Below, in pieces: positions 4,954 through 34,492 of a DNA stretch of 35,825 nt. The DNA is from Thiobacillaceae bacterium (GTDB lineage: Bacteria > Pseudomonadota > Gammaproteobacteria > Burkholderiales > Thiobacillaceae), in the NCBI GenBank assembly GCA_025458005.1, contig JALOTG010000044.1, positions 1-35,825 of the forward strand. The letters are read 5' to 3'. The notes beneath the pieces are model-generated. The model was not told the DNA's origin, did not search any database, and saw nothing but the letters and a program-made list of their open reading frames with translations. The stretch's first letter is position 1. Each line of letters begins with the position of its first letter. The position numbers and the translations under genes were made by a program.

Positions 4954-5454
4954 CTAGACGCCGCCGCTGTGGACCGTGTCGTAATAGATCTTCTCCAGTT
5001 CCAGCTTGTGCTGGGTCTCCTCGCTGGCCAGGTAGCGGAACAGGTCACGGATGGGGCCTTCCGGCGCCGTTTCGGCCAGTTCGCCGTAGTGCGTCATGGC
5101 CGCGTGCTCCCGGCCCATGGCGTACTGCAATACGGTCTGGTCGTCCGGGTTCTCCCCCAGGTCCGGCAGGTGCAGGCAGTCGGAGAACTTGCTGTCGCTG
5201 GCGGTGCGCTGGATTTCCTCCTTCACCTGATCAGCGATGTCCGCGCGCCGGGCCAGGGCGTTGAACAGGTCGTAGTGCCGCTGCTCCTCCGCGGCCAGTT
5301 CCTCCACCAGGTAGCGGATGCGCTTGCTGACCCTGGGGATCAGGGCCGCGTAGAAATCCCGGGCGCTGGCCTCGAAGCCGGTGGCCACTTCCAGGATTTC
5401 CCGCAGGGTGGTCTTGCCGCGCAGGCGGTCGATTGCGTGGGTACCTTCGGTCAT
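4954..5454 (-). CDS. Ferritin-like (rubrerythrin-type) diiron protein
   Basis: A 166-residue four-helix protein with two ferritin-like half motifs. The first is FEASARDFYAAL followed by AAEEQRHYDLF. The second is GREHAAMTHYGELAE followed by SEETQHKLELEK. These supply the Glu and ExxH ligands of a diiron site. There is no rubredoxin domain and no signal peptide, so a cytoplasmic protein is expected. It starts MTEGTHAIDRL; its ATG overlaps the stop of the upstream NuoI-GltD fusion gene (ATGA), so translation is probably coupled. It is the last gene of the Mbx/MBS-like operon. Rubrerythrin relatives usually act in peroxide reduction or iron handling. A link to the complex's oxygen or sulfur chemistry is my inference from position only. 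The longer ORF start at 5622 is spurious. Confidence 0.85.
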   Translation of the reverse strand: MTEGTHAIDRLRGKTTLREILEVATGFEASARDFYAALIPRVSKRIRYLVEELAAEEQRHYDLFNALARRADIADQVKEEIQRTASDSKFSDCLHLPDLGENPDDQTVLQYAMGREHAAMTHYGELAETAPEGPIRDLFRYLASEETQHKLELEKIYYDTVHSGGV

Positions 5455-7250
5455 TTCGCCATCTCCACAGGCATCAGGACGGCATGCACGCTGGCGGCCA
5501 CCCGATGGCCGTCGGCCACCGCGTGCACCACGTCGGGGCCGGCCACGCAGTCTCCCGCCGCCCACAGCCAGGGCGCCGAGGTGCGGCCGTCGGCGTCGAT
5601 CTTCAGGCGGCCCCGGTTCCATTCCAGTTGTTCGGTCAGGGCCTCGCCCAGCAGGGAGGTGTCGGCGAACTGGCCGATGGCCTCGATCACCGTGTCGCAG
5701 GCGTGGATGGTTTCCTGGCCGTCGTCGTAGCGGGGCGCGAAGCGCTTGTTCTCGTCGAAGATGGACAGCACCTTCCAGGTCTTCAGGCCGATGAGCTTGC
5801 CCCGGGCGTCGATCTCGCAGCCCTGGGGACCGCAGTTGTCCCGGATGACGATGCCCTCTTCCAGGGCCTCCTTGATCTCGTCCGGGTCGGCCAGGAAGTG
5901 CTGCTGGTCCTCCAGGGCGGTGACCACCACGTCCACCTGGCCGTACTGCACCTTCTGCTTGCGGGCGAGCGACCGGGCGATGTCCATGGCCACGTTGCCG
6001 CCGCCGATGACCACGGCACAGTGGGGCAGATCGAAGGGTTCATTGGCGGCGATCCTGCGCAGCAGGTCGACGGCCCGATAGACCTTCTCGTGCTCGGAAT
6101 GGGGGATGCGGGTCTGCCGGCCCTGTTGCAGGCCGATGGCCAACACCACCGCGTCAAAGGTCTGGCGGAGTTCATCCAGGGTCTTGTCCACGCCGATGCG
6201 GCAGTTGTATTCGATCTTCACCCCCATGGACGCGATGACCGCCACGTCCCGGTCCAGGGCGTCATAGGGCAGGCGGTATTCGGGGATGCCATAGCGGGTC
6301 ATGCCGCCGGCCGCGGCCTCGGCCTCGAACACCGTGACGGCGTGGCCCATCCGCGCCAGATCGAAGGCGGCGGTGAGGCCCGCCGGGCCGGCGCCGATGA
6401 TGGCCACCCGCTTGCCCGTGGCCGGGCCGGGGCCGCCGATGAGGTCCGGGATACGGTCGAAGGGCACCTGATCCACGATGTGGCGTTTCAGCCAGCGGAT
6501 GGCGATGGGGTCCCCTTCGTGGCGGGCGGCGCAGGCGTCCTCGCACTTGTGGGTGCAGACCCGGCCGCACACGTGTGAGAAGGGGTTGGTCTCGTAGAGC
6601 AGCCTCAGGCCGCGCTCGTAGTCCCCGTCGCGGATGGCGGCGATGTACTGGGGTACCGCCATGTGGGTGGGGCAGGTGGCCACGCACAGGCCGCAGGCCA
6701 CGCAGCGGTCCGCCTCCAGGGCGGCCTCTTCCCGGGTGTAGCCGTGCACGATCTCCCGGAAGTTGTCGATGCGGTCTTCCGGGGGCATTTCCCCCATGGG
6801 GATGCGGTACTGGCCGGTGAGGCGGTGGCCTTCGGGGCGTCGGTAGCCCAGCTCGAGGGTGTTCCATTCCAGCCTGTCCACGCCCGGGGTAAAGCGGAAG
6901 GCGTCCGGGTCGCTTTCCACCCACGCGTAGGCGTTGGACATGGTCAGCGACTGGGTCATGCACACGTCCACACACAGGGCGCACCAGCAGCAGCGGCCGT
7001 AGTCGATGCGGGGGCGCAGGCCGGAATCTCCGGGTTTGGTCTCGATGCCCGTCACCGGCAGCATGTCGATGGCGCCGTTTTGGCAGATGGTCTCGCAGGT
7101 GCCGCAGCCAATGCACTTGGCCATGTCGTTCTGGTGGAAGCCGCGATAGCGGGGGGCGGCCTCCCGGTTCAGCGGGTCCGCGATGGACACCGGGTCGCGG
7201 AACAGGTGCTTCCAGGCGGTGAAGGGGGAAAGAAGGTCCTTGACGCTCAT
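5451..7250 (-). CDS. NuoI-like ferredoxin fused to GltD/NfnL-like NAD(P)H:FAD oxidoreductase
   Basis: A 599-residue fusion, starting MSVKDLLSPFTAW two bases after the nuoD-like stop. Residues of about 40-120 form a two-cluster ferredoxin like NuoI/MbxN, with CIGCGTCETICQNGAI and CCWCALCVDVC. From about 190 follows the N-terminal Fe-S domain of the glutamate synthase small subunit family, with CVACGLCVATCP and HVCGRVCTHKCEDAC. Then come the FAD Rossmann motif VAIIGAGPAGLTAAFDLARM, the second dinucleotide motif VVIGGGNVAMDIARSLA (pyridine nucleotide), and the closing WLWAAGDCVAG. The NuoI part should pass electrons to the NuoB-like subunit. The GltD-like part should oxidise or reduce NAD(P)H, replacing NuoEFG, none of which is present. 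Whether NADH or NADPH is used, and the direction, cannot be read from the sequence. Confidence 0.9.
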   Translation of the reverse strand: MSVKDLLSPFTAWKHLFRDPVSIADPLNREAAPRYRGFHQNDMAKCIGCGTCETICQNGAIDMLPVTGIETKPGDSGLRPRIDYGRCCWCALCVDVCMTQSLTMSNAYAWVESDPDAFRFTPGVDRLEWNTLELGYRRPEGHRLTGQYRIPMGEMPPEDRIDNFREIVHGYTREEAALEADRCVACGLCVATCPTHMAVPQYIAAIRDGDYERGLRLLYETNPFSHVCGRVCTHKCEDACAARHEGDPIAIRWLKRHIVDQVPFDRIPDLIGGPGPATGKRVAIIGAGPAGLTAAFDLARMGHAVTVFEAEAAAGGMTRYGIPEYRLPYDALDRDVAVIASMGVKIEYNCRIGVDKTLDELRQTFDAVVLAIGLQQGRQTRIPHSEHEKVYRAVDLLRRIAANEPFDLPHCAVVIGGGNVAMDIARSLARKQKVQYGQVDVVVTALEDQQHFLADPDEIKEALEEGIVIRDNCGPQGCEIDARGKLIGLKTWKVLSIFDENKRFAPRYDDGQETIHACDTVIEAIGQFADTSLLGEALTEQLEWNRGRLKIDADGRTSAPWLWAAGDCVAGPDVVHAVADGHRVAASVHAVLMPVEMAK

Positions 7251-7252
7251 GG

Positions 7253-8428
7253 CTATCGTTCGATCTCGGGCGGATAGGTGTGCAGGGACACCATCAGCGC
7301 GGCCACGTCGGAGATGTTGAGCCCCACGATCATGCGCTCCAGCAGGGCCATGGCGTGGGTGTAGGAGGGGCCGCGCACGTTGACCCGGCGCGGGTAGCCG
7401 CTGCCGTCGGTGACCAGGTAGTAGCCGTACTCGCCCCGCGAGCACTCCCCCCGCAGGTAGGTCTCGCCGCGGGGGATCCGCCAGTGCAGCATGCTGGGCA
7501 TGGGGGCCATGACCGGGCCGTCCTGGGGCATGCGCGCCAGGATCTGGCGGATCAGGTCCACGGACACCAGCACGTCCCGGCGGCGCACGTCGGCCCGCGT
7601 GTAGATGTCCGAGTCGTGGCCGATGACGGGCTCGAAGTCCAGCTGTGGGTAGACCAGGTAGGGGGCGTCCCGGCGCACGTCCTTGGCCACCCCGGCGGCC
7701 CGGGCGTTGGGGCCGGTGACGCCGTATTCGTCCAGCCAGGCGGGGTCGATGATGCCCTGCCCCACGCTGCGCCGCTTGAACACGGCGTTGCGGAACATCA
7801 CGTCCGAAACGTCCTTCAGGGTGCGCTCCACCTCCCGCAGGGTCTCTTCCATGCGGCCTTCGAAGCCCTCGGGCAGCTGGTCCCGCACGCCGCCTGGCAG
7901 GATGAACATGTGGTAGATGCGGGCGCCGGTCATCTCCTCGAAGCGGTCCAGCATCAGGTCGCGGGCATAGGTGGTCCACTGGCCGATGACGCCCAGGCCG
8001 ATGGCGCCGGCCTGCCCCCCCAGGTACATGAGATAGCTGTTGATGCGGCCCATCTCCAGGATCAGGGCGCGTATCCAATGGGCCTTCTCCGGCACCTCCA
8101 CGCCGGCGAGTTCCTCCACCGCCGCCGCGTAGCAGTATTCGTTGAAATCCGGCTCCGGTACGCAGATGCGGCAGACGATGGGGAAGCACTGGATGAAGGT
8201 GCGCCGCTCCATGAGCTTCTCGAAGCCCCGGTGCAGGTAGCCCACGTGGGTCTTGCCCGCCACCACCTCGTCGCCGCAGACGGTCAGTTCCACCGACATG
8301 TTGCCGGTGATGCCCGGGTGGTTGGGGCCCTGCCAGAGCTTCAGGTACTTGCCCGAGGCGAGGTCGATGTCCAGGCTGCCGTCGGGCTTCCTGGCCGGGT
8401 ATTGGGAGCGGTCGGGGGTGTAGGCCAT
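7253..8428 (-). CDS. NuoD/[NiFe]-hydrogenase large subunit-like protein (MbxL/MbsL type)
   Basis: A 391-residue homologue of complex I NuoD and of group 4 hydrogenase large subunits, expected in the cytoplasmic arm. Family marks are GPNHPGITGNMSVEL, HVGYLHRGFEKLMERRT and GVEVPEKAHWIRALILEMGR. The N-terminal metal motif is partly kept as VCRICVPEPDFNEY (Cys86, Cys89), but the usual His after it is absent. The C-terminus reads VGLNISDVAALMVSLHTYPP and has no CxxC, so a NiFe site is not expected. This pattern fits the Mbx/MBS and Ehr groups and excludes a true hydrogenase. The ATG lies one base from the stop of the upstream nuoC-like gene. Confidence 0.92.
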   Translation of the reverse strand: MAYTPDRSQYPARKPDGSLDIDLASGKYLKLWQGPNHPGITGNMSVELTVCGDEVVAGKTHVGYLHRGFEKLMERRTFIQCFPIVCRICVPEPDFNEYCYAAAVEELAGVEVPEKAHWIRALILEMGRINSYLMYLGGQAGAIGLGVIGQWTTYARDLMLDRFEEMTGARIYHMFILPGGVRDQLPEGFEGRMEETLREVERTLKDVSDVMFRNAVFKRRSVGQGIIDPAWLDEYGVTGPNARAAGVAKDVRRDAPYLVYPQLDFEPVIGHDSDIYTRADVRRRDVLVSVDLIRQILARMPQDGPVMAPMPSMLHWRIPRGETYLRGECSRGEYGYYLVTDGSGYPRRVNVRGPSYTHAMALLERMIVGLNISDVAALMVSLHTYPPEIER

Positions 8429-8429
8429 G

Positions 8430-8972
8430 TCAGCCCTTGCCCGGATAGAGCTGCTGCTTCATGTGGCTCTCGGGGTCGCGAGTTTCCCGCCCGGGCCGCT
8501 GGGCGTAGCTGTCCTGGGCGTACTGCAGGGTGTCGAAGTCGCGCCGGTAGGGGGGGATGTCGTTCCAGCCCTCCAGGATGAATTCCTCGTACACGCCGGG
8601 GCTGTCCGGGAAGTCGATGCCGAACATCTCCCGCAGCTCCCGCTGGTAGGTGGCCGCCGTGGGCCAGAGGTCGTGGATGCTGGCCATCACGGTGCCCAGC
8701 CGAGGCAGCATGACGCGCAGGCCGATGTCCCGGTTCTCGGCGCGGTTGGAGAGCAGGTAGGTGAGCTGGAACTGCCCCTGCTCGATCCAGTCCACCGCCG
8801 TCAGCAGCACCAGGTGGGTAAAGCCCTCCCGGTCCCGCAGGTGCAACAGGGCCGGCCGCAGGTATGCCCCGGGCAGGGTGACGAAGGCCAGATTGGATCT
8901 TTGCTCCGTGAACTCGCCCACGGGGAACAGGGCCTTCAGGCGGTCGTAGAGTGCGTGCATAGCATCGTTCAC
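8430..8972 (-). CDS. NuoC-like 30 kDa subunit (MbxK type)
   Basis: A NuoC/HycE-N-like subunit of the peripheral arm, about 177-180 residues. Recognisable parts are GFTHLVLLTAVDWIEQGQFQ, then SIHDLWPTAATYQRELREMF and GIDFPDSPGVYEEFILEGW, which match the conserved NuoC end before PPYRRDF. I chose the GTG at 8972 because it overlaps the nuoB-like stop as GTGA, the same junction seen elsewhere in this operon. The ATG at 8960 (MHALYDRLKALF) is equally possible and neither has a strong ribosome site. The ORF track extends the frame to 9446, but that part is a shadow of the nuoB-like gene. Confidence 0.88.
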   Translation of the reverse strand: MNDAMHALYDRLKALFPVGEFTEQRSNLAFVTLPGAYLRPALLHLRDREGFTHLVLLTAVDWIEQGQFQLTYLLSNRAENRDIGLRVMLPRLGTVMASIHDLWPTAATYQRELREMFGIDFPDSPGVYEEFILEGWNDIPPYRRDFDTLQYAQDSYAQRPGRETRDPESHMKQQLYPGKG

Positions 8973-9634
8973 CAGTTGTAGTCCGGCATGTCCCAGTCGT
9001 GGATCACCTGCTTCTGGTTGGCCTTGTACCAGGTGAAGTTCTCCGCGTAGCGGTTGGCGCCTTCCGCCTGGCCGGCGCGGATCAGCTTCTTCAAATCCTC
9101 GAAGCCCTGCAGCAGGGCCTCCGGGCGGGGCATGCAGCCGGTGATGTAGAGGTCCACGGGCAGGTACTGGTCGAGGCACTTGATGGTGTTGTAGGAATCC
9201 CAGTACATGCCGCCATTGATGGTGCAGGAGCCCAGGCCGACGACGTATTTCGGGTTCTGCATCTGCTCGTAGGCGCGGATGGCCCGCTTCAGGGTCTTGG
9301 TGGAGAGATAGCCGGAGATCACCAGCAGATTGGCCTGGCGCGCCGTGGGCCGCCACTGGATGCCGTAGCGGTAGGCGTCGAAGCGGGGCGTCATCAGGGG
9401 GCGCATCTCGATGGCGCCGCAGCCGGTGCCGAAGCCGAGGATCCACAGGGACTGGGCGCGGGCCCAGTTGAAGAAGTCCTCGACGATCTTCAGGTAGGCG
9501 CCGTGCTGCACCGTGGGCGGGGCGTCGCAGAAGTAGTCCCTGAGGGGCTCCACCTCGAATTCCACGCCGTCCGGCCCCTTCACCTTGCGGGGCATCAGCT
9601 CGGGTTTGATGAAATGCATCGGGTCGCGCTTCAT
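8969..9634 (-). CDS. NuoB-like [4Fe-4S] subunit with only three cluster cysteines (MbxJ/MbsJ type)
   Basis: A 221-residue homologue of NuoB and the hydrogenase small subunit. It carries the cluster that in complex I is N2. The first motif reads FGTGCGAIEM (Cys72), where complex I has two adjacent cysteines (CCAIE) and hydrogenases have CxxC. I checked the bases: the codons are TGC GGC. The other two ligand positions are kept, GLGSCTING (Cys137) and YITGCMPRPEAL (Cys167). Extra cysteines at 36 and 153 lie outside the usual motifs. A three-cysteine cluster leaves one iron open, which is what was proposed for catalysis in Pyrococcus MBS. The ATG is nine bases from the nuoH-like stop. Confidence 0.92.
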   Translation of the reverse strand: MKRDPMHFIKPELMPRKVKGPDGVEFEVEPLRDYFCDAPPTVQHGAYLKIVEDFFNWARAQSLWILGFGTGCGAIEMRPLMTPRFDAYRYGIQWRPTARQANLLVISGYLSTKTLKRAIRAYEQMQNPKYVVGLGSCTINGGMYWDSYNTIKCLDQYLPVDLYITGCMPRPEALLQGFEDLKKLIRAGQAEGANRYAENFTWYKANQKQVIHDWDMPDYNW

Positions 9635-9643
9635 GTCTTCACC

Positions 9644-10549
9644 TCACACCAGCAGGATGGCCAGCACGCCGAGGGGCACGGCCCAGACCAGGAACCAGCG
9701 GATGGACTGCTCCACCCGGAAGCGGGGGAAGACCACCCCCACGAACACCGAGACCAGGTAGATGCAGAACACCTTGAGGAAGAACACCGGCCAAGTGGCC
9801 GCGCCGCCGAAGAACAGGTTCATGTAGACCACGATCTTGGCGATGGGGAAGATGGCCCGGTTGGTCTGCATCAGGGCCAGGTAGGAGGAGTGGTACTCGG
9901 TGGGCGGGCCGATGGGTATCTCCTGGGGCGCCAGCACCACGTCGAAGGGCGGCCGCATCATGGAGCCGAGGAAGGCGAGCATGGCCGCCGCCACGGCGAG
10001 CGGGTTGGTGAACAGGGTCCAGTTTTCCACGCCGCCCTGCTGGGCGGCGACGATGTCGGTGATGGACAGGGTCTGGTACTGGAGCGCCACCGCGAACACC
10101 GCCAGGGCGAAGGGCAGTTCGGCGGCGGTGACCTGGGCCAGGCCCCGGCTGACGCCGATGGCCGCGTGGGGATGGCCGCTCTCCCCCGCCCCCAGGGCCA
10201 TGCCCAGGGTGCCGAAGAAGACGAAGTAGAGGGCCAGGATCAGGTCGCCGGCGAACGACAGGTTGGAGAACATCTCCGAGCCGTAAATCGTGGGCACGAA
10301 CAGCAGCAGGCCCACCCCGCCGGAGAGGCGGAACACCGGGCCCAGGTAGAACATGACGCCGTGGGTGATGGAGGTGCGCAGGCCGTAGTTCTTGATCAGG
10401 TCGGCGTAGTTCTGCCAGATGGGCACGCCGTGGCGGCGCCCCACCCGCGCGGCGATCTTCTGCATCAAGGCGCCCAGCAGCATGCCGTAGTTCACCACGA
10501 TGAACAGGGTCAGCAGGGCGTAGGGGATCTTGATCCACTCGAATGCCAT
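9644..10549 (-). CDS. NuoH-like membrane subunit (MbxM type)
   Basis: A 301-residue integral membrane protein with about eight hydrophobic segments, homologous to NuoH and HycD/MbhM. It joins the peripheral arm to the antiporter arm. Visible family marks are MQKIAARVGRRHGVPIWQNY followed by ADLIKNYG, the acidic loop GESGHPHAAIGVSRGLAQVT with the following AAELPFALAVF, and the loop RPPFDVVLAPQEIPIGPPTE. The loop spacing is closer to hydrogenase-type than to canonical NuoH. It begins four bases after the fused antiporter gene stops, which implies cotranslation. Length is normal for the family and no break is visible. Confidence 0.93.
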   Translation of the reverse strand: MAFEWIKIPYALLTLFIVVNYGMLLGALMQKIAARVGRRHGVPIWQNYADLIKNYGLRTSITHGVMFYLGPVFRLSGGVGLLLFVPTIYGSEMFSNLSFAGDLILALYFVFFGTLGMALGAGESGHPHAAIGVSRGLAQVTAAELPFALAVFAVALQYQTLSITDIVAAQQGGVENWTLFTNPLAVAAAMLAFLGSMMRPPFDVVLAPQEIPIGPPTEYHSSYLALMQTNRAIFPIAKIVVYMNLFFGGAATWPVFFLKVFCIYLVSVFVGVVFPRFRVEQSIRWFLVWAVPLGVLAILLV

Positions 10550-10553
10550 GGCC

Positions 10554-13500
10554 TCAGGCCCCCATGCCGATGAAGAAGGCGATGATGACGAAGGCCAGGA
10601 GGTGGAAGGCGTAGGTCTGGCCGTTGCCGTCGTAGAGCCGCCGTCCCAGGTCCCCCGCCGTGTGCAGCAGGTCGGTCACCGCCCCCCAGAAGTTCGTCGC
10701 CAAGGGCTGGGTCAGGAAACCCAGGGCCTTGCGGTAGGGGGCGAAGAAGTTCCAGGCGAAGTGGGTGGTCTCGGGCCGGTAGGGGCGCTCGGCCGAGAAC
10801 ACGATGTTGAACTGCTTCACCATCTGGGCGCGGCGGTTCACGAACAGCAGCCAGAGGAAGAGGGTCGTGAAGATCACGCCGACGACGATCATGATGGCGA
10901 TGGGGTCCCAGTAGCCGTACTGGCTGGTGATCTGCCCGCCCTCCCAGCGCAGGCCGCCGTCGGGGAAGAACCGGTCGAGGTAGGCGTCCACCTGGCGCAA
11001 GGCCAGGCCGGGCACCAGGGCGAACACCAGCAACAGGGCCACGTAGATCATCTGCGGCAGCACGATCCAGAAGGGCGCCTCCTTCACCCGTCTGAGCTCG
11101 TCCTTCAGCTGGCCCAGGAAGATGGTGTAGATGAGCCGGAACAGGTACAGGAAGGCCACCGGCCCGGCGAGGAAGAGGACCACGATGGGCAGGCGGGTCT
11201 CGCTGTCCATGATGGCGTTGTAGAAGATCCAGCGTCCGCCGAAGCCGGACAGCGGCGGCACGCCGGAGAGGGCGATGATGCCGATGAGCACGGCGATGAA
11301 GGACAGGGGCATGAGCCGGATCAGCCCGCCCATGCGGTACATCTCGCGGGTGCCGGTGCGCTTGGCCACGCCGCCCACGGCCAGGAACAGCATGGACTTG
11401 TAGATGTAGTGGTTGATGACGAACACCAGGGCCATGAGCCAGCCCAGGTGGTTCATCAGCGCCAGGCCGAACATGGCGTAGCCCATCTGGCCGATGGAGG
11501 AATAGGCCAGCAGGCGCTTGGCGTCTTCCTGGAACACCGCCATCAGGTTGCCCAGCAGGGCGGTGAGGGCGGCCACCCAGAGCAGGGCGTGGGTCAGCTC
11601 CACGCCATGGAGCTGCTGCTTGCCCATGGCCAGCAGCAGGACCATGAGTCCGTAGAGCCCCGCCTTCAGCAGGATGCCCGACACCATGGGGGAGACGTCC
11701 GTCTCCGCCTCGGCATGGGCGCCCGGCAGCCAGATGTGCACGCCGATGGCGGCGGTCTTGGTCATGAAGCCGATGGCCAGCAGCAGGAACACCCAGGGGG
11801 CCGCGGGCGCGGCTACCTGGGCCAGGGACGCCAGGTCGAGCTGGAGCGCGCCGGTGGCCGCGAGGTCGAGCCGTGGCACGGCGGCCGCCGCGATGGCGAA
11901 GCCCGCCAGGATCAGGAAGGCGCCGCCCAGGGAGAACAGGATGTAGGACAGGGCATGGGGCTCGGACGCCTTGCCGCGCAGGATCAGGAAGTAGGAGCCC
12001 ACCGTGAGCAGCTCCCAGGCGGCGAAGAACTCGAAGGCGGACGTGGCCTGGATCAGCATCACCATGCCGGCGTACATGAGCATGGCCGCCGGATAGAAGC
12101 CGATGCGCCGGCCGTGGGCGTGGTAGCTGGCCAGCAGGGTGAGGGCGCCGCCGATGAGGAAGATGATGGCGAAGATGAGCCGCATGGGGTCGTACTCGCC
12201 CCAGGTCATGATGAAGTAGGCCACCAGGCCGGCGATGGCCAGGGTGTTCTTGATCCAGGCGGGCAGCCAGTCCAGCAGCAGGAAGGCCAGGGCAAACAGC
12301 AGCGGCAGGGCCAGCAGCAGGTTGACGCGCCCGAACAGGTCGCCCCACAGCCAGGCCAGGGCCCAGCCCGCCGCCAGGGCGGCCAGCACGGGCACGAGCT
12401 TGTGGGGTGTGCAGGGCGCGGTCTCCCCTCCCGGGGCTTCCCGCTTCAGGAGGTAGCCGAACCAGCGGAACAGGTAACCGGCCTCGATCAGCGCGCCCAG
12501 CAGGACCAGGGCCAGCAGGACCAGGCGGTCCGCGCCGGCCAGGTGGTGCACCAGTTCCCACTTGGCGTAGAAGCCGGGGAAGGGGGGCAGGCCCGTGAGC
12601 ATGGCCATGAAGGTGGCGAAGGCGAACACCAGCAGGGGGCGTCTGCCCAGCGCCGCCCAGTCCGTCAGTCGCCGCTCCTGCACCAGCCCCGAGAGCCAGT
12701 ACAGGCCCGCCTTGGCCACGGCGTGCGAGACGAGCAGGCCGAAGGCGATGAAGGGGGTGGCCTCGCCCAGGATGTCCCGCTGGCCCAGCACCATCAGCAC
12801 CAGGCCGGTCTGGGCCACGGAGGAGTAGCCCAGCAGGCGGCGGTCATGGGTCTGGGGCAGGGCCAGGAGGTTGGCGGCAATGAAGGTGACGATGCCGATG
12901 GCCGTGGCCATCGGCAGCCAGGCGTCGCCGCCGATGAGCAGCAGCTTGTCCGCGGCGTAGAGGACCGCGGCGCCGGTGGCGGCGGAGAACAGGGCGGAGA
13001 AGGCGGGGGGGGCCGACTCGTAGATGTCCAGGGCCCAGCCGTTGGCCGGGAAGGGCTTCAGCTCGGACACGACGGCGATGAACATGAGGAAGAAGGCCAG
13101 GGCCGCGACGTTCGCCAGCCCCGCCTCGGCCATGCCGTCGATGTTCAGGGTGCCGGTGGCGTGGTAGGCGAAGATGATGCCGACGAGCAGGAACACCGAG
13201 ATGAACTGGGACACCACCAGGTACTTGAAGCCGGCCCCCAGGGCCAGGCCCGGCCGGTGGGTGTCGGACAGCAGCACCAGGCCGGCGGTGGAGATGACGG
13301 CCAGCTCCAGGAACACGAACAGGTTGAACATGTCCCGGGTAAGGATGATGCCGCCCAGTGCCATGACCGCCACCAGCAGCACGGCCATGGCGCGCCTGCC
13401 CTGGTTCAGCAGCACATCCTTGAGATGAATGGCCGAGAGCAGGCCGGTCAGGTTCACCAGCAGGGTCAGGGCGGCCTCCGGCAGGCCGAAGCGCAGGTTG

Positions 13501-13736
13501 ATGGCGAAGGGCGGCGGCGTGCCGGCGGTGAGGATCTCCACCGGGGCGGCCCCTTGCAGGACGAAGGCCCACAGCCAACGGGCCGGAATCCAGGCCATCC
13601 AGGCCAGGGCGACCAGGGTCAGTCCGTAGGCAACCCCGCTCTGCCGGGGATGCAGCAGCCCGAGCAGGAAGGCGGCGCCCAGGCCCGTGGCAAGGATGAG
13701 GAGGGGGCTCAGCAACAGGCCGTCCACGCCGCTCAC
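10554..13736 (-). CDS. Double antiporter-like subunit: MrpD/NuoN-like half fused to NuoL/MrpA-like half
   Basis: One open frame of 1060 residues holds two complete antiporter-like modules. Module 1 (about 1-480) has FVFLELAVIS (TM5 Glu), VVSELKPFPANGWALDIYES (TM7 Lys) and LLVSHAVAKAGLYWLSG (TM12 Lys). Module 2 (about 490-1060) has FAAWELLTVGSYF (TM5 Glu), GFMTKTAAIGVHIWLPGAHA, SGILLKAGLYGLM, LLAYSSIGQMGYAMFG and VINHYIYKSMLFLAVGG. It ends in a long C-terminal extension as in NuoL/MbhH types. In Pyrococcus Mbx/MBS these are separate H and H' proteins; complex I also keeps them separate. The GTG start at 13736 overlaps the mrpC stop (GTGA). The 150 extra residues in the ORF track are a shadow of mrpC. 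Confidence 0.9.
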   Translation of the reverse strand: MSGVDGLLLSPLLILATGLGAAFLLGLLHPRQSGVAYGLTLVALAWMAWIPARWLWAFVLQGAAPVEILTAGTPPPFAINLRFGLPEAALTLLVNLTGLLSAIHLKDVLLNQGRRAMAVLLVAVMALGGIILTRDMFNLFVFLELAVISTAGLVLLSDTHRPGLALGAGFKYLVVSQFISVFLLVGIIFAYHATGTLNIDGMAEAGLANVAALAFFLMFIAVVSELKPFPANGWALDIYESAPPAFSALFSAATGAAVLYAADKLLLIGGDAWLPMATAIGIVTFIAANLLALPQTHDRRLLGYSSVAQTGLVLMVLGQRDILGEATPFIAFGLLVSHAVAKAGLYWLSGLVQERRLTDWAALGRRPLLVFAFATFMAMLTGLPPFPGFYAKWELVHHLAGADRLVLLALVLLGALIEAGYLFRWFGYLLKREAPGGETAPCTPHKLVPVLAALAAGWALAWLWGDLFGRVNLLLALPLLFALAFLLLDWLPAWIKNTLAIAGLVAYFIMTWGEYDPMRLIFAIIFLIGGALTLLASYHAHGRRIGFYPAAMLMYAGMVMLIQATSAFEFFAAWELLTVGSYFLILRGKASEPHALSYILFSLGGAFLILAGFAIAAAAVPRLDLAATGALQLDLASLAQVAAPAAPWVFLLLAIGFMTKTAAIGVHIWLPGAHAEAETDVSPMVSGILLKAGLYGLMVLLLAMGKQQLHGVELTHALLWVAALTALLGNLMAVFQEDAKRLLAYSSIGQMGYAMFGLALMNHLGWLMALVFVINHYIYKSMLFLAVGGVAKRTGTREMYRMGGLIRLMPLSFIAVLIGIIALSGVPPLSGFGGRWIFYNAIMDSETRLPIVVLFLAGPVAFLYLFRLIYTIFLGQLKDELRRVKEAPFWIVLPQMIYVALLLVFALVPGLALRQVDAYLDRFFPDGGLRWEGGQITSQYGYWDPIAIMIVVGVIFTTLFLWLLFVNRRAQMVKQFNIVFSAERPYRPETTHFAWNFFAPYRKALGFLTQPLATNFWGAVTDLLHTAGDLGRRLYDGNGQTYAFHLLAFVIIAFFIGMGA

Positions 13737-14098
13737 CCCTTCAGCTCCGTGAACCGGCCGATGTCCAGCGTGCGCTTCTGGCTGTACAGCCGCAGGGCGT
13801 AGGCCAGCATCAGGGCGGTGATCCCCACGCCGATGACGATGGCGGTGAGCACCAGGGCCTGGGGCAGGGGGTCGATGATGCGGGCCGCGGCATCGCTGGC
13901 GGCCAGGGTGGCGTCCAGGATGGGGGCCGTGCGCCCGTGCATATAGCCGATGGAGACGATGACGACGTTCACCCCCGTGCCGGCCACGGTGAAGGCGACG
14001 ATCATGCGCAGCAGGTTGCGGCGGGTGAGGGCGCCGTAGAAGCCGATGAGAATCAGCAGGAAGCCGGTGGCCATGGCCAGTTGGGCGATGCCGGGCAT
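13733..14098 (-). CDS. mrpC: MrpC/NuoK-like antiporter subunit
   Basis: A 121-residue membrane protein with three hydrophobic helices, of the MrpC/MnhC (NuoK-like, MbxG) family. Visible are GFYGALTRRNLLRMIVAFTV, then GTGVNVVIVSIGYM, and the helix-3 stretch DPLPQALVLTAIVIGVGITA, which is the conserved family signature. In the Mrp antiporter and in complex I this subunit forms part of the proton path. The ATG at 14098 overlaps the upstream stop as TGATG; a GTG at 14101 would give GTGA. The last bases overlap the start of the fused antiporter gene. Confidence 0.93.
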   Translation of the reverse strand: MPGIAQLAMATGFLLILIGFYGALTRRNLLRMIVAFTVAGTGVNVVIVSIGYMHGRTAPILDATLAASDAAARIIDPLPQALVLTAIVIGVGITALMLAYALRLYSQKRTLDIGRFTELKG

Positions 14099-14811
14099 CA
14101 CGCTTCCTCGCGCGTTTCAGCGTCCGTCTCGGCGAGGCTGACCAGCATGGAGGACACCTCCGCGCCCACCTTGAGGCCGATGAGGACATAGATCAGGGGG
14201 ATGGCGCCGGCGGAGAACAACGCCCCCAGGGCGCCGGTGGGCAGGATGCGGTTGTCCAGGAAACCGCCCGCCAGGATCAGGCCCAGCAGGCCGATGAGCA
14301 CGTAGACGACGCCGGCGACGGATTCCACGGCGGCGATCAGGCGATGACCGAATCGCCGCAGCGGATCGGCCAGCAGGAGCAGCAGCGTGCCGGAGGCGAT
14401 GATGGCGCCGCCCTGGAAACCACCGCCCGGGGTCAGGTGGCCGTTGACGAAGACATAGACGCCCAGCAGCAGGATCAGCGGCGCCAGGTAGCGGCTGCCG
14501 GTGGTGAGCAGCTCCCCCACCGGCACCCGGCCCCGGGCGGGGGTGCCGGATTGACCGCCCTGGGACAGCACCAGGCCCACGATGGTGGCGGCCAGGAACA
14601 GCACCGTGACCTCGCCCAGGGTGTCCAGGCCCCGGTAGGTGACGATGATGGCGGTGACGATGTTGGCCGCCCCCAGGTCCTGGGCGGTACGCTGGGCGTA
14701 GTAGCGGGCGGTCTGGTTCAGTTCGGCGTCCGGCGCGTAGGTCGCGAGCAGAACCGCGAACAGGCCGCCGACCGCCAGCACCAGCACCAGGGCGATGAAG
14801 CGCTTAACCAT
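14098..14811 (-). CDS. mrpB: MbhE-like plus MrpB domain protein (MbxE-F type)
   Basis: A 237-residue membrane protein that joins two usually distinct Mrp pieces. The first 85 residues hold QDLGAANIVTAIIVTYRGLD followed by TLGEVTVLFLAA, the MbhE/MrpA-C-terminal (NuoJ-like) signature. After a linker rich in Gly and Pro, residues of about 105-225 hold an MrpB domain: SRYLAPLILLLGVYVFVNGH and LTPGGGFQGGAIIASGTLLL. It overlaps the preceding DUF4040 gene by eight bases. The charged tail ETDAETREEA is cytoplasmic by prediction. Confidence 0.9.
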   Translation of the reverse strand: MVKRFIALVLVLAVGGLFAVLLATYAPDAELNQTARYYAQRTAQDLGAANIVTAIIVTYRGLDTLGEVTVLFLAATIVGLVLSQGGQSGTPARGRVPVGELLTTGSRYLAPLILLLGVYVFVNGHLTPGGGFQGGAIIASGTLLLLLADPLRRFGHRLIAAVESVAGVVYVLIGLLGLILAGGFLDNRILPTGALGALFSAGAIPLIYVLIGLKVGAEVSSMLVSLAETDAETREEA

Positions 14812-15106
14812 CCTCGCCTCCCTTCGTTTCGGACTGGCTCCGGATGCGGCCCAGCACGAAGAAGAACAGGAAGGTGGTGAGACCGCTGCCGATGGCCGCC
14901 TCGGTCATGGCCACGTCAGGCGCCGCCAGCACCAGGAACAGCACCGAGGCCAGCAGGCTCACCAGGCCGGCGGCGAGGATGGCGATGGGCAGCCCGCTCG
15001 TGTCGGTCTGCGCCTCCTCGGCGCCGGGCTCGCCGATCGCCAGCAGGGCGGCGCCGAGCATGGCGACGCACAGCACCCCGGTCATGGCGGTCATCAGGTT
15101 GCCCAT
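14804..15106 (-). CDS. DUF4040/MbhD-like Mrp subunit
   Basis: A 100-residue membrane protein equal to the DUF4040 part of MrpA, as in MbhD/MbxD. The signature LAAPDVAMTEAAIGSGLTTF is clear. Three hydrophobic segments are predicted. The ATG at 15106 overlaps the mrpG stop as TGATG; a GTG three bases earlier is possible. The ORF track start at 15259 is a shadow of mrpG. A full-length MrpA is not present; its functions appear split between this gene, the MbhE-like domain and the second antiporter module. Confidence 0.88.
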   Translation of the reverse strand: MGNLMTAMTGVLCVAMLGAALLAIGEPGAEEAQTDTSGLPIAILAAGLVSLLASVLFLVLAAPDVAMTEAAIGSGLTTFLFFFVLGRIRSQSETKGGEDG

Positions 15107-15444
15107 CACGCCTCCCCCCGGTCTTCCGACAGCCGGTCCACGCTGGTGAGAGACGACTTGACCGTGCCGGCCCGATGGGCCGCCCGGGCCAGCACCTGGG
15201 ACGAGATGGGGTTGGTGAACAGGATGAACAGGCCGATGAGCAGCAGTTTCAGCCCCCACTCGGGGTGCAGGCAGGCGGCCCCCGCCAGGCCCAGCAGGGT
15301 GCCCAGGGTGGTGGCCTTGGTGCCCGCCTGGATGCGGTTGAACAGGTCGGGCATGCGCACCAGACCCAGGCCGCCCAGCAGCAGGAAGACCGCGCCAGCC
15401 ACAAGCAGCAGCGCGCCCAGGAGATGCAAGGGGGTGTCAGTCAA
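15106..15444 (-). CDS. mrpG: MrpG-family antiporter subunit
   Basis: A 112-residue MrpG/MnhG protein (MbxC type) with three hydrophobic helices. The family block GGLGLVRMPDLFNRIQAGTK followed by ATTLGTLLGLAG is intact, as is the third-helix LFILFTNPISSQVLARAAHR. It begins inside the end of mrpF, with a 4-base overlap. It is expected in the membrane arm of the complex. Confidence 0.94.
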   Translation of the reverse strand: MTDTPLHLLGALLLVAGAVFLLLGGLGLVRMPDLFNRIQAGTKATTLGTLLGLAGAACLHPEWGLKLLLIGLFILFTNPISSQVLARAAHRAGTVKSSLTSVDRLSEDRGEA

Positions 15445-15701
15445 AGGCCCCGCTCCAGGTAGCGGGCGATGACGATCACCCCCAGGAAGGACAGCAGGGC
15501 ATAGACCAGCGCCACGTCCAGGTAGATGCCGCGCCCCTCGGCAATGGCGGCCAGGACGATGCCGGTGATGCCGACGATGGTGAGCACGTCGAAAGCCACC
15601 ACCCGGTCGCCGGGCGACGGCCCCCTGAGGAAGCGGACCAGGGCCAGCAGCAGGGCCAGTCCGGCCAGGGCCGCCGCCAGCTGGATCAGCGTTTCAGCCA
15701 T
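15441..15701 (-). CDS. mrpF: MrpF-family antiporter subunit
   Basis: An 86-residue MrpF/MnhF protein (MbxB type) with three hydrophobic helices. Family marks are LVRFLRGPSPGDRVVAFDVL and LDVALVYALLSFLGVIVIAR. It starts within the last bases of mrpE (15694) and overlaps mrpG by four bases, so the whole Mrp block is tightly packed and probably cotranslated. Confidence 0.94.
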   Translation of the reverse strand: MAETLIQLAAALAGLALLLALVRFLRGPSPGDRVVAFDVLTIVGITGIVLAAIAEGRGIYLDVALVYALLSFLGVIVIARYLERGL

Positions 15702-16106
15702 ACATGACCTCCAGGTAGCGCTCGAAGCCGGACACGATGCGGGCCGTGGCGGTTTCGATGTCTTCCGACTCCACGTTCACCCAGTGGATGTAGAGCCACT
15801 CGCCGTCCATCTCCACGGTGAGGGTGCCGGGGGTGAGGGTGATGGAGTTGGGCCCGCCAGGCGCAGGTTGGACTTGACCAGTTCCCTGAGGAAGTAGGCC
15901 ACGTAGACCGGCGCCGTGAGAAGTGCCCGGGGCGTGAAGCGGAATTCCGAGACCACCGACAGGCCGCCGCTGAACAGCAGGGTGATGACCAGGGCCGCGA
16001 CCACCCCCACCAGGAGGACGTCCGCGGCCAGGGAGCCGTTCAGCAGCAGCCACAGCCCCAGCAGGGTGGCGAACAGCATGGCCGACTCGCGCGCCCCGGC
16101 CATCAT
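15694..16106 (-). pseudogene. mrpE: mrpE, internally deleted and frameshifted
   Basis: MrpE (MbxA type) is the first subunit gene of the operon. The N-terminal half is in one frame, from ATG 16106: LLGLWLLLNGSLAADVLLVG through VYVAYFLRELVKSNLRLAG. The C-terminal half is in another frame and ends at 15694: NSITLTPGTLTVEMDGEWLY to YLEVMYG. In intact MrpE proteins roughly 30 residues separate KSNL from the ITLTPGTL block, so about 90 bases appear lost near 15850-15862, with a frame change. As written no single protein contains both halves. The flanking genes are intact and in tight coupling, which makes an assembly or sequencing error a serious alternative to real loss. Confidence 0.8.
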
Positions 16107-16207
16107 CCCGCCAGGGGTTCCGGGACGACCGTGGAACGGTCGGTCGCACGCGCCCGGGCCGCGCAGGGGACCGAGTCGACTCTCGCCGCAAGCTTGTCTT
16201 CGTTCAT
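16103..16207 (-). CDS. Possible 34-residue leader ORF coupled to mrpE
   Basis: ATG at 16207 opens MNEDKLAARVDSVPCAARAR and runs 34 codons to a TGA that overlaps the mrpE ATG. The coupling is suggestive, but there is no good ribosome site, no hydrophobic segment and no recognised family. It may be a leader peptide, a gene remnant or chance. Confidence 0.25.
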   Translation of the reverse strand: MNEDKLAARVDSVPCAARARATDRSTVVPEPLAG

Positions 16208-16553: not shown

Positions 16554-17612
16554 TTACTCGAGAACGCGCAGCTCGACGCGACGGTTCTGGGCGCGCCCGT
16601 CGGCCGTGGCGTTGTCCGCGATCGGGCTGGACTCGCCATAGCCCTTGGCGGTCAGTCGGGCGGCGGCGATGCCCTGGGACACGAAGTAGTCCATCACGGC
16701 CTTGGCGCGACGTTCGGACAGCGGCTGGTTGTAGGCCTCCTCGTTGACGCTGTCGGTGTGACCGGCCACCTCCACCTTGAGGGCGGGATAGCGCTTCAGG
16801 GTCGCCACCGCGTCGTCCAGGATGGGTTTGGCGTCGTCGCGGATCACGTCGGCGTCGAAGTCGAAGTTCACCCCCTTGAGGATGATACTGCTGGTCAGGG
16901 TGCAGCCCTTGCTGTCCACCTTGTCGCCCCTCGGCGTGTCGGGGCACTGGTCGAGGCCGTCCACCACGCCGTCGCCGTCGCTGTCCAGCTCGCAACCGTT
17001 GGCGTCCACCTTGCGGCCGGGCGGGGTGCCCGGGCAACGGTCGAGGCGATCCACCACGCCATCGCCGTCGCTGTCCAGCTCGCAGCCCTGGGCGTTCACC
17101 TTGGCGCCCCTGGGCGTGTCGGGGCACTTGTCGAGGGCATCGACGACGCCGTCGCCGTCGCTGTCCGGTTCGCAACCCTGGGCGTCCACCTTGCGGCCGG
17201 CGGGGGTGTCCGGACAGCGGTCCAGGCGATCCACCACCCCGTCGCCGTCGCTGTCCAGCTCGCAGCCGCTGGCGTCCACCTTGGCGCCCGCCGGGGTGTT
17301 GGGACACTTGTCCTTGTCGTCGGTCACCCCGTCGCCGTCGCTGTCCTGGGGCGCGGCCTTCACGGGGGCGGCCTTCACGGGGGCGGCGGGGGCGGGTACC
17401 GGGCATTCCCTGCCCAGCAGTTCCCGACCCGGACAGCCGATGGTCCTGTAAAGCTCGTAGCCGCTGGTGAATCCGCTGCCGCTGGCGGCGTTGGCGGGGT
17501 CGTAGAAGCGTGCCTCCTGCGCCTGGACACTGATCGCCGCGGTGGCGAGGAACGCCGCGCCGAGGGCGCCAAGGACGGTCAGACGAGAGGGGGGGCGGGA
17601 TTTCTGCAGCAT
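16554..17612 (-). CDS. OmpA-family protein with five thrombospondin type 3 repeats
   Basis: A 352-residue outer-membrane or periplasmic protein. The start MLQKSRPPSRLTVLGALGAA has AGGAG seven bases upstream; a signal peptide ends near AAISVQAQ. A short N-terminal segment (YELYRTIGCPGRELLGREC) and a Pro/Ala linker follow. Next are five 30-residue units of the form DSDGDGVVDRLDRCPDTPAG, which are Asp-rich calcium-binding type 3 repeats. The C-terminus is an OmpA-like peptidoglycan-binding domain, with GVNFDFDADVI, VEVAGHTDSVNEEAYNQPLS and the RRVEL end. There is no evident full N-terminal beta-barrel; it is more like a linker protein tethering the outer membrane to peptidoglycan. The longer ORF start at 17732 lacks support. 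Confidence 0.92.
   Translation of the reverse strand: MLQKSRPPSRLTVLGALGAAFLATAAISVQAQEARFYDPANAASGSGFTSGYELYRTIGCPGRELLGRECPVPAPAAPVKAAPVKAAPQDSDGDGVTDDKDKCPNTPAGAKVDASGCELDSDGDGVVDRLDRCPDTPAGRKVDAQGCEPDSDGDGVVDALDKCPDTPRGAKVNAQGCELDSDGDGVVDRLDRCPGTPPGRKVDANGCELDSDGDGVVDGLDQCPDTPRGDKVDSKGCTLTSSIILKGVNFDFDADVIRDDAKPILDDAVATLKRYPALKVEVAGHTDSVNEEAYNQPLSERRAKAVMDYFVSQGIAAARLTAKGYGESSPIADNATADGRAQNRRVELRVLE
16896..17345 (-). repeat. Five tandem 90-bp coding repeats (thrombospondin type 3)
   Basis: Exactly 450 bp, five units of 90 bp, encoding D-S-D-G-D-G-V repeats ending in GCEL/GCEP/GCTL. Units 2 and 4 (both DRLDRCP) are most alike, which suggests duplication of a two-unit block. Copy number could vary by slippage or be miscounted in assembly. 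Confidence 0.9.
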
Positions 17613-17764
17613 GGTTGTTCTCCTGGGTAAGGAAGTAAGGGACGACGGTAGCATCTCGGCTCTCACCGCCCGGCGGATGCCTTGGCGGAGGCCAGGAAAG
17701 GCGTGGTCACAGTCACGATCGGTGCCCGACACTCATGTCCAGTGGAGTGACCTGGGACAAGGAC

Positions 17765-32544: not shown

Positions 32545-32587
32545 TTGATGGCCATCAAGGAATCCCTCTTTGGTGGTTCAGTACCAT
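32545..32587 (+). promoter_or_regulatory. FNR/ANR-type site and class II promoter ahead of fccAB
   Basis: TTGAT-GGCC-ATCAA at 32545-32558 is a perfect match to the FNR consensus TTGAT-N4-ATCAA. A TACCAT -10 lies at 32582-32587. A start near 32593 would put the site centre at about -41.5, the class II FNR position. The fccA ATG follows at 32658. Confidence 0.7.
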
Positions 32588-32657
32588 ATGTCGGACTGCG
32601 GCCAGGTACGGATGGCTCCACCATGGTCGTGCAGTGACTTTTTGTCTGGAGGAGAGC

Positions 32658-33102
32658 ATGCACAAAGTGCACCAAGGCATTGCGACGGCGATGACCGCCG
32701 TGGGCCTGATGCTGGCTGGCCTGGCCCAGGCCGCGCCGAATATCGAGGGACTGGCGCGCACCTGCAACAACTGCCACGGCACGGGCGGGGTGAGCGTGGG
32801 CACATCGATGCCCTCGATCGCCGGGCTGTCGGAGGCCTACCTGAAGCACATCATGATGGAATGGAAGAGCGGCGCGCGCGCCTCGGCCAACATGACGCGC
32901 CTGATCAAGGGCTACACCGACGAGGAGATCGCCGGCCTGGCCGCCTACTACGCCAAGCTGCCCTGGACGCCGCAGCCGCAGAAGGTGGGCGCGGACATCC
33001 TGGCCAAGGGCAAGGAGGCCACCGAGGATCAACAACGCCCGCAAGATGGACGCGGGCAACGTGCCCGTCGCCGCCGAGTTCTACGGCGCGCAAGGCAAGT
33101 AA
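32658..33102 (+). pseudogene. fccA: fccA, sulfide dehydrogenase cytochrome subunit, internally deleted and frameshifted
   Basis: Periplasmic cytochrome c partner of FccB. The N-terminal domain from ATG 32658 (GGAGGAG upstream) has a signal peptide ending AQAAP, heme motif CNNCHG and axial Met region, then GYTDEEIAGLAAYYAKLPWT and AKGKEATE. At about 33027 the frame changes. The other frame gives INNARKMDAGNVPVAAEFYG and AQGK then TAA, resembling the C-terminal helix of FccA. The block between, which in diheme FccA carries the second CxxCH, is absent. As written only one heme motif remains and the C-terminus is scrambled (EDQQRPQDGRG). fccB directly follows and is intact, so an assembly gap is a real alternative. 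Confidence 0.75.
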
Positions 33103-33112
33103 GGGAAAGAGC

Positions 33113-34492
33113 ATGAGCCAAATCGATCGTCGCACCTTCATCAAGGCCCTGGCCGCCGCCTCTTCCGCCTCCGCCCTGTCATTGCCGTCGCTCGCCCTGG
33201 CCAAGACCAAGGCCAAGGTGGTGGTGATCGGCGGCGGCTATGCCGGCGCCACCGCCGCCAAGTACGTCAAACTGCTCGACAAGGACATCGAGGTGACCTT
33301 GATCGAGCCCAACCAGATCTACGTGTCCTGCCCGCTGTCCAACGAGGTGGTGGTCGGCCACCGCGACATCAAGACCCTGGCGGTCGGCTACGACGGGCTG
33401 AAGAAGCGCGGCGTCACCGTGCTGCACGACCTGGTCACCGGCGTGGACCGGGCCAAGAAGGTGGTCAGCACCAAGGGCGGCAAGAAGCTCGCCTACGACG
33501 CCTTGGTCATGTCGCCCGGCATCGACTTCCAGTACACGGGCATCGAAGGCTACACGGAGGCCCTCACCGAGCAGTTCCCGCACGCCTGGAAGGCCGGGCC
33601 GCAGACCCTGCTGCTGAAGAAGCAGCTCGAGGCGATGCCCGATGGCGGCGTGTTCGTCATCGTCGTGCCGAAGGGCCCGTTCCGCTGCCCGCCCGGCCCC
33701 TACGAGCGCGCCTCGCTGGTGGCCAACTACTTCCAGCACCACGGCAAGAAGAAGAGCAAGGTCATCATCCTGGACGCCAACGACTCGCACTCCAAGAAGG
33801 GCCTGTTCAACCAGGCCTGGGCCAAGCTGTACGGCTGGGAGAAGGAGGGCCTGGGCACCAACGGCATGATCGAGTGGGTGAAGGGCGCGGAGGGGGGCGG
33901 CGTCACCAAGCTGGACGCCAAGACCAAGACGGTGTCCTCCGACTTCGTCGACGTTAAGGCCGACGTGCTCAACATCATCCCTTCGCACAAGGCCGGCAAG
34001 ATCGCCGCCGACGCGGGCCTCACGGGCGCCGAGGGCAATAACTTCGAGAAGGGCTGGTGCAAGGTGGAGCCGATGACCATGGCCAGCGCGCTGGACGCCA
34101 ACATCTACGCCATCGGCGACAGTTGCGTGGCCGGCGAGATGCCGCTGTACGGCAACCCCAACGCGGCCTTCGACATGCCCAAGAGCGCGCACATCGCCAT
34201 GACCCAGGCCAAGGTGGCGGCCGCCGCCATCGTCGCCAAGCTCAATGGCCTGCCGACCCCCGAGCCCTACTACGCCAATACCTGCTACAGCGTGGTGGGC
34301 GACGACTACGGCATCTCGGTGGCGCACCTGTACCGGGTGGTCAACGGCACCTTCAAGTACATCCCGGAGGGCAGCGGCGTGTCCATGACGACCATGCCCG
34401 ACAAGTCGCCCGTGCCCGCCATCTACCGCAAGCTCGAGGCCGAGTACGCCGACGGCTGGCTGCGCAACGTCATCGCGGATGCGTTCGGCTGA
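33113..34492 (+). CDS. fccB: Sulfide dehydrogenase flavoprotein subunit (flavocytochrome c)
   Basis: A 459-residue periplasmic FAD protein that oxidises sulfide to sulfur or polysulfide and passes electrons to FccA. A Tat signal (DRRTFIKALAAASSASALSL) is present, consistent with export of a folded flavoprotein. The FAD fold starts VVVIGGGYAGATAAKYVKLL. Cys73 in YVSCPLSNEVV matches the cysteine that binds FAD covalently in Allochromatium FccB. The two redox-active cysteines are kept, in FRCPPGPYERASL and NTCYSVVGDDYG. NIYAIGDSCVAGEMPLYGNP is the second FAD motif. It starts 10 bp after fccA and is probably in the same FNR-controlled transcript. Confidence 0.95.
   Translation: MSQIDRRTFIKALAAASSASALSLPSLALAKTKAKVVVIGGGYAGATAAKYVKLLDKDIEVTLIEPNQIYVSCPLSNEVVVGHRDIKTLAVGYDGLKKRGVTVLHDLVTGVDRAKKVVSTKGGKKLAYDALVMSPGIDFQYTGIEGYTEALTEQFPHAWKAGPQTLLLKKQLEAMPDGGVFVIVVPKGPFRCPPGPYERASLVANYFQHHGKKKSKVIILDANDSHSKKGLFNQAWAKLYGWEKEGLGTNGMIEWVKGAEGGGVTKLDAKTKTVSSDFVDVKADVLNIIPSHKAGKIAADAGLTGAEGNNFEKGWCKVEPMTMASALDANIYAIGDSCVAGEMPLYGNPNAAFDMPKSAHIAMTQAKVAAAAIVAKLNGLPTPEPYYANTCYSVVGDDYGISVAHLYRVVNGTFKYIPEGSGVSMTTMPDKSPVPAIYRKLEAEYADGWLRNVIADAFG

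Follow-up and report, generated by a model that had tools for sequence, protein, structure and literature searches.

The window analysed here is a 35,825-bp stretch of DNA from a Thiobacillaceae bacterium, and it carries a gene that encodes two antiporter-like subunits, H and H', in a single chain of 1060 amino acids (aa). The two halves correspond to MbsH and MbsH' of the sulfane sulfur reductase of Pyrococcus furiosus (MBS, formerly Mbx; 6u8y). In the explanation that we prefer, and to which we assign a probability of roughly 0.6, the gene is a natural H + H' fusion that, judging from sequence comparisons, occurred once, and its product would belong to an NAD(P)H-linked ion-pumping complex of the MBS/Mbx type in which each half keeps its own fold. 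The gene is divided as follows:

10554..13736, minus strand: fused H-H' protein, 1060 aa, two antiporter-like subunits per chain (Pfam, NCBIfam, and PDB searches; AlphaFold2 model)
12333..13736, minus strand: N half, residues 1-468, MbsH/MrpD/NuoN-like, 14 predicted transmembrane (TM) helices (6u8y_H match, VIA structure comparison, residue survey)
12321..12332, minus strand: junction, about residues 469-472, a short linker from N-half TM14 to C-half TM1 (model helices, no start codon backed by a ribosome-binding site, homologue alignment)
10554..12320, minus strand: C half, residues 473-1060, MbsH'-like, 16 predicted TM helices and a lateral helix at about 993-1033 (6u8y_X alignment, residue survey, model)

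One open frame in many bacteria

The gene starts with a GTG at 13736 that overlaps the stop codon of the mrpC-like gene upstream, and its frame stays open as far as the TGA at 10554. An earlier sequence-only reading, which named no strand, had described two antiporter subunits in one 1060-residue protein. That description holds for the minus strand, given the uninterrupted gene, the two stretches matched by Proton_antipo_M (PF00361; Pfam), and the matches to both MbsH and MbsH'. In NCBIfam and PDB searches, MbsH ("subunit N") is the counterpart of residues ~12-430 (about the first 440), and MbsH' ("subunit M") aligns over its whole length (6u8y_X residues 8-617) to residues 451-1059, including the C-terminal lateral helix and the last TM helix. 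Read on the plus strand, 10554-13736 gives a meaningless frame. A possible upstream start at 14189 (1211 aa) merely overlaps the mrpC-like gene in another frame, and close relatives start at the position equivalent to 13736 or a few codons inside it.

The AlphaFold2 model, with 17 fused homologues as input, has a predicted local distance difference test score (pLDDT) of 80.2 and a predicted template modelling score (pTM) of 0.82. It places 14 TM helices in residues 12-467 and, after a gap of a few residues, 16 TM helices and the lateral helix; residues 623-630, 830-833, 941-945, and 969-992 are weak. The N half (residues 7-469) matches 6u8y_H with a VIA Z score of 39.6 and 7qru_D with 43.0, and it aligns to MrpD, NuoN, and MbsH with Z of about 40-43. 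The structure prediction proposed with the sequence-only reading thus gives 14 + 16 TM helices and an antiporter-like fold for the N half, and the protein has both the Proton_antipo_M domain and the 14-helix fold of the antiporter-like subunit family. Several NuoL-type chains of complex I (NADH:quinone oxidoreductase) align from residue ~8 to residue ~1044, of which only the end residues of the alignment are reported; this span hints at the N-half core together with the lateral-helix region, in which case the lateral helix would cross the N half as in MBS. Because the even number of N-half helices (14) leaves its C terminus on the side where H' starts, a short linker can join the halves, and the fusion would need neither a change of topology nor an additional helix.

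The junction had been expected at residues 480-520 but is placed near 468-472: in the model, the helix at 444-467 ends, and the next helices are at 473/477-488. The GC content by codon position is even across the junction (0.94-0.98 at third positions). If internal initiation or cleavage parted the halves after transcription, then one gene would yield two proteins, and two GTG codons (448 and 450) lie near the junction, although nothing direct points to such a process. These are the only in-frame start codons in residues 425-500; both are inside the last N-half helix, no evident ribosome-binding site or Shine-Dalgarno-like sequence precedes either in that interval, and the linker is only a few residues long. 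We therefore regard two products as extremely unlikely and infer that the gene is expressed as one chain.

A lost stop codon, through sequencing or assembly error, could in principle have joined two normal genes, as the source is a 329-contig draft genome, about 90% complete, with a damaged mrpE nearby. However, independent genomes share this open frame, among them those of named isolates, as does a plasmid record with a single coding sequence (CDS), and the assembled sequence has no stop or usable start between the halves. Error is thus already refuted for the fusion as such, and we treat its probability as negligible. The sequence-only reading had asked whether relatives always have two genes, and they do not: a single-frame fusion is present in 23/23 loci compared (17 in alignment A2, window included, and six from a phylum sample), at 36-81% identity and mostly in Pseudomonadota. 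Three genomes of the same GTDB family carry it at 75-81% identity, and a class sample adds two genomes with a fusion-type cluster, one intact and one deleted.

A scan of named genomes yielded 80 loci. By their reading frames, a single fused gene is present at Rhodobacteraceae, Aliiruegeria, Celeribacter, gammaproteobacterial, Rhodocyclaceae, Bacteroidetes-labelled, and Spirochaetes metagenome-assembled genome (MAG) loci, as well as in Microvirga, (Para)Burkholderia, Rhizobium, and (Pseudo)Chelatococcus; in the Paraburkholderia sprentiae plasmid it is annotated as one CDS, "proton-conducting transporter membrane subunit". Two adjacent genes are present at eight loci (Rectinema, Bacteroidetes SpSt, Bipolaricaulota, Zixibacteria, a delta proteobacterium, an Acholeplasmatales MAG, one further bacterium, and Fermentibacteria) and in Pyrococcus. 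Identity to the window protein is at least 36% over the full length for fused forms and near 30% or below for split forms. Of 397 other Pseudomonadota genomes, sampled evenly, six have H-H', all fused. The H' family search revealed no split MBS-type H' in this sample: all matches with E below 1e-90 are fused, and the remaining ones are conventional proteins of ~500-720 aa.

Two kinds of candidate were rejected. Very long frames with antiporter matches in genomes G030 and G058 contain a single antiporter region each. A 654-aa frame in genome G542, a class-level relative, resembled a split gene, but MnhB, MrpC, and the N half are missing from its contig, which also has more deletions and a broken mrpG; the cluster is thus deleted or misassembled rather than split into two genes. 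At this locus (L133, contig C152), an in-frame join links the start of MbhD to the H-H' C half, repeated FAW codons flank a second deletion, and mrpG has a frameshift.

In the tree of each half, one branch with a Shimodaira-Hasegawa-like approximate likelihood ratio test (SH-aLRT) support of 100 separates the 23 fused sequences from the nine split ones, among them P. furiosus. The trees are unrooted, and sampling began from a fused query; the topology fits one fusion event, after which the fused forms diverged as two groups. As the join is real and common to many bacteria, it represents a conserved version of a known machine, neither an artefact nor an isolated case. The novelty that had been claimed for the window copy therefore does not extend to uniqueness, since the fusion occurs across several bacterial families.

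Unequal residues in the two halves

In the residue survey, fused homologues were aligned and compared with the reference residues of MbsH and MbsH' (PMC7684303). The TM5 Glu is kept in both halves (E144 and E575). In the N half, the TM7 kink position is Glu225 (cf. E219 in MbsH) with Lys227 two residues further, TM11 has H338 and K342, TM12 has K392, and the TM8 position is Ala256 where MbsH has K250. The C half has K660 in TM7, K691 in TM8, and H776 in TM11, and its TM12 residue is Arg835, not Lys. The earlier assignment of a TM5 Glu, TM7 Lys, and TM12 Lys to each half is thus right at four of six positions (five if K227 is counted) and wrong for N-half TM7 and C-half TM12. The latter residue is Arg in proteobacterial proteins of type A, and type B and the MAG proteins from Bacteroidetes and Spirochaetes have Lys there; the two types are distinguished by gene order (see below).

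At the position of the MbsH TM8 Lys, the N halves of all fused proteins have Ala, Ser, or Thr, and the first TM11 His is absent from both halves in all of them. The C half, which retains a TM5 Glu, TM7 Lys, TM8 Lys, and a TM11 His, could be the one real pump, with the N half as a partly degenerate partner and the fusion chiefly structural, fixing the position of H; the N-half losses would be expected in such a protein. However, the N-half TM5 Glu, TM7 Glu/Lys pair, TM11 His338/Lys342, and TM12 Lys are invariant in 17 fused proteins. Additionally, split bacterial relatives likewise lack the N-half TM8 Lys, and thus its loss is not tied to fusion. A degenerate N half therefore seems somewhat unlikely, and both halves may move ions. 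Nevertheless, given Glu225 and the lost TM8 Lys in the N half and Arg835 in the C half, the notion of two complete pumps fits the fold of H-H' but not its residues.

Gene cluster and redox arm

The fused gene sits in a 13-gene minus-strand cluster encoding MrpE-F-G, MbhD, MnhB, MrpC, H-H', NuoH-B-C-D, an Fe-S/flavin NAD(P)H protein, and a rubrerythrin-like protein:

15694..16191, minus strand: mrpE-like gene, frame broken by an internal deletion (PF01899 matches the C-terminal part only)
15441..15701, minus strand: MrpF-like subunit (PF04066)
15106..15444, minus strand: MrpG-like subunit (PF03334)
14804..15106, minus strand: MbhD/DUF4040-like subunit (PF13244)
14098..14811, minus strand: MbhE + MnhB-like subunit (PF04039, PF20501)
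13733..14101, minus strand: MrpC/NuoK-like subunit (PF00420)
9644..10549, minus strand: NuoH/MbsM-like membrane anchor (PF00146)
8969..9634, minus strand: NuoB/MbsJ-like subunit (best match 6u8y_J, E 7e-63)
8430..8972, minus strand: NuoC/MbsK-like subunit (PF00329)
7253..8428, minus strand: NuoD/MbsL-like subunit (best match 6u8y_L, E 1.7e-91)
5451..7250, minus strand: NuoI/MbsN-like two-cluster ferredoxin domain fused to a GltD/NfnB-like FAD/NAD(P) module (Fer4, Fer4_20, Pyr_redox_2)
4954..5454, minus strand: rubrerythrin-like diiron protein, overlapping the stop of the Fe-S/flavin gene (PF02915)

The N-terminal part of the mrpE-like gene is in another frame, with ~30 residues missing and the damage near 15850; mrpE is intact in relatives L120, L126, L127, L022, and L032. 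Directly upstream of the cluster is a gene for an OmpA-family protein with thrombospondin type 3 repeats (16554-17732, minus strand). A flavocytochrome c sulfide dehydrogenase-like flavoprotein is encoded at 32570-34492 on the plus strand and hints at sulfur oxidation in the host.

The solved structures nearest to H', NuoD, and NuoB are P. furiosus MBS chains (6u8y), as is the N-half match. In an alignment to 6u8y_L and Nqo4, the window NuoD lacks the quinone-site residues of complex I (the 49-kDa His38/Tyr87 positions are not His/Tyr). It also lacks the NiFe cysteine pairs, the C-terminal pair being missing and the N-terminal pair incomplete, and MbsL is similar. NuoB cysteines C72, C137, and C167 align with MbsJ C28, C93, and C123, and three-Cys ligation of the cluster is predicted. 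The position of MbsJ C25 is Gly in every type-A locus read and Cys in every split locus read. Mutagenesis of P. furiosus MBS showed C25, C85, and C385 to be dispensable, and the three-Cys cluster has been proposed as the catalyst (PMC7684303). These residue states, together with the mutagenesis, favour MBS-like chemistry for the redox arm, for which NAD(P)H is a likely partner. The Fe-S/flavin protein matches 6u8y_N, NfnA/NfnI-alpha, and the glutamate synthase small chain (GltD), and its fusion of NuoI-like ferredoxin and GltD/NfnB-like flavin domains is kept in type-A fused and in split bacterial MBS-like clusters. A rubrerythrin-like gene lies downstream in 8/8 type-A loci by similarity, and L037 also has a Pfam rubrerythrin-family gene.

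In the window organism, H-H' would do the pumping within a redox complex. NAD(P)H would probably be oxidised at the GltD/NfnB-like flavin domain, and electrons would pass through [4Fe-4S] clusters to the NuoB-like cluster with only three cysteine ligands, at which sulfane sulfur or another non-quinone substrate may be reduced. Coupled to this reduction, ions would move through H-H' and the MrpEFG/MbhD/MnhB/MrpC module. The opposite direction, in which an ion gradient drives NAD(P)+ reduction, is also possible. In autotrophic or sulfur-oxidising hosts the complex might work mainly in reverse, with a proton or sodium gradient driving electrons from sulfide, polysulfide, or other donors to NAD(P)+. 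The NAD(P)-type flavin module, the sulfide dehydrogenase-like gene in the window, and a putative Mrp-Mbx complex of the Riftia symbiont that is co-expressed with carbon fixation genes (PMC11636981; it may not be of the fused type) speak for this. However, direction is not readable from sequence, and we judge mainly reverse operation to be unlikely.

The gene order of the window cluster is the same as in MBS-like loci with two genes. In type A, which comprises the window and all other fused loci with enough flank that are not type B, redox genes follow H-H'. The type-B order (MrpE-F-MbhD-G-MnhB-C-HH; Rhizobiales and Burkholderia loci L025-L030, L100, L124, and L125) has MbhD and MrpG swapped relative to type A, and nothing redox-like lies beside the cluster. 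No redox arm was found elsewhere in two near-complete type-B genomes: the only similarity to NuoD there, 31-34%, is of the degree expected for complex I, and the flavin module matches just ordinary proteins of GltD length; type-A controls gave redox-arm orthologues at 81-83% (NuoD-like) and 67% (flavin module). Judging by gene content, the double subunit is thus used without a redox arm as well. We tentatively suggest, at somewhat less than even odds, that a single-origin, covalently linked double antiporter subunit with two chemically unequal halves forms a separate Mrp/MBS branch, acting as the pump of an NAD(P)H-driven MBS-like complex in type A and, in type B, at the heart of stand-alone cation/proton antiporters that would make up a new class.

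Several observations weigh against the NAD(P)H-linked MBS/Mbx-type reading. Of the MbsH central axis, the TM8 Lys and a TM11 His are missing from the N half, which thus may not pump as MbsH does. The conserved rubrerythrin-like gene, for which no MBS counterpart is described, hints at another substrate or at a link to oxygen or peroxide. Most named type-A hosts belong to the proteobacteria rather than to sulfur-respiring archaea, and the choice of a fused query skews the set of relatives retrieved. Finally, the broken mrpE-like gene reflects either a genuine lesion, in which case the window copy may not function, or a faulty assembly at this point; the fusion itself is unaffected.

Comparison with known systems

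In solved structures of complex I, Mrp, and MBS the equivalents of the two halves are separate proteins, as the sequence-only reading had stated. No description of an H-H' fusion was found in the open-licence literature searched, which treats MBS/Mbx in archaea, although an earlier one may exist elsewhere, and the MBS paper (PMC7684303) mentions none. The window has the MBS/Mbx gene set and order (MrpE/F/G-MbhD-MnhB-MrpC-H-H'-NuoH-B-C-D-I) and shares with P. furiosus MBS the H' lateral helix, a NuoD-like subunit without quinone or NiFe sites, and the three-Cys proximal cluster. In contrast, H and H' are two chains in MBS and a single 1060-aa frame here; ferredoxin feeds electrons to MBS, whereas the window has an attached NAD(P)H flavin domain; no rubrerythrin-like gene is described for MBS; and MbsJ C25 and MbsL C385 are replaced in the window. 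That a covalent link fixes stoichiometry and order, as had been proposed, is a reasonable inference, but in MBS the two subunits are already tied to each other by the H' lateral helix (PMC7684303), and thus the gain may be modest. MBS-type complexes would be extended to proteobacteria, with an attached NAD(P)H domain.

Split bacterial MBS-like clusters (Rectinema, Zixibacteria, Fermentibacteria, and Bacteroidota; L031, L033, L035, and L043) share the gene order and the Fe-S/GltD-type NAD(P)H protein. They differ in that H and H' are adjacent yet separate and the C25-type cysteine is kept, and no similarity match to the window rubrerythrin-like protein was found near six split-type clusters. 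A further match to the H' family NF006419 comes from a Thermotoga maritima protein. Of the two CxxC pairs that bind NiFe in the energy-converting [NiFe] hydrogenase MBH, one is absent from the window NuoD and the other is incomplete there.

Mrp antiporters (cation/proton antiporter family CPA3; 7qru, 6z16, 7d3u) share the MrpC/E/F/G/B-type module and the antiporter-like fold, and type-B clusters stand alone as they do. However, MrpA and MrpD are separate there, whereas here H-H' is one chain and MbhD and MnhB have their own genes. Type A departs further from Mrp in having a redox arm; type B has none in the two near-complete genomes, but its A/D roles are in one chain. A different Mrp fusion, of mrpA with mrpB, is known in group 2 (PMC5703873).

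Complex I shares homologous NuoB/C/D/H/I/K and antiporter-like subunits, and on the strength of the NuoB/C/D/H/I-like subunits the cluster could be a variant of it. However, complex I has three separate L/M/N subunits, a quinone site, and the NuoE/F/G module, whereas the window has no third antiporter-like subunit, no NuoE/F/G, and a NuoD without both quinone-site residues, together with an MrpE/F/G/B module. Additionally, three consecutive complex I-type antiporter genes of L, M, and N lengths are clustered on contig C69 of the same genome, which also has several Mrp-like ones. A complex I variant is therefore highly unlikely. The complex I fusions given in PMC12361115 are NuoCD and NuoBCD, neither of which involves pump subunits. 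It has long been asked how several antiporter-like subunits receive redox energy in complex I and related complexes, and a naturally fused pump pair, with and without a redox arm and with unequal residue sets, makes the coupling of neighbours testable in one gene.

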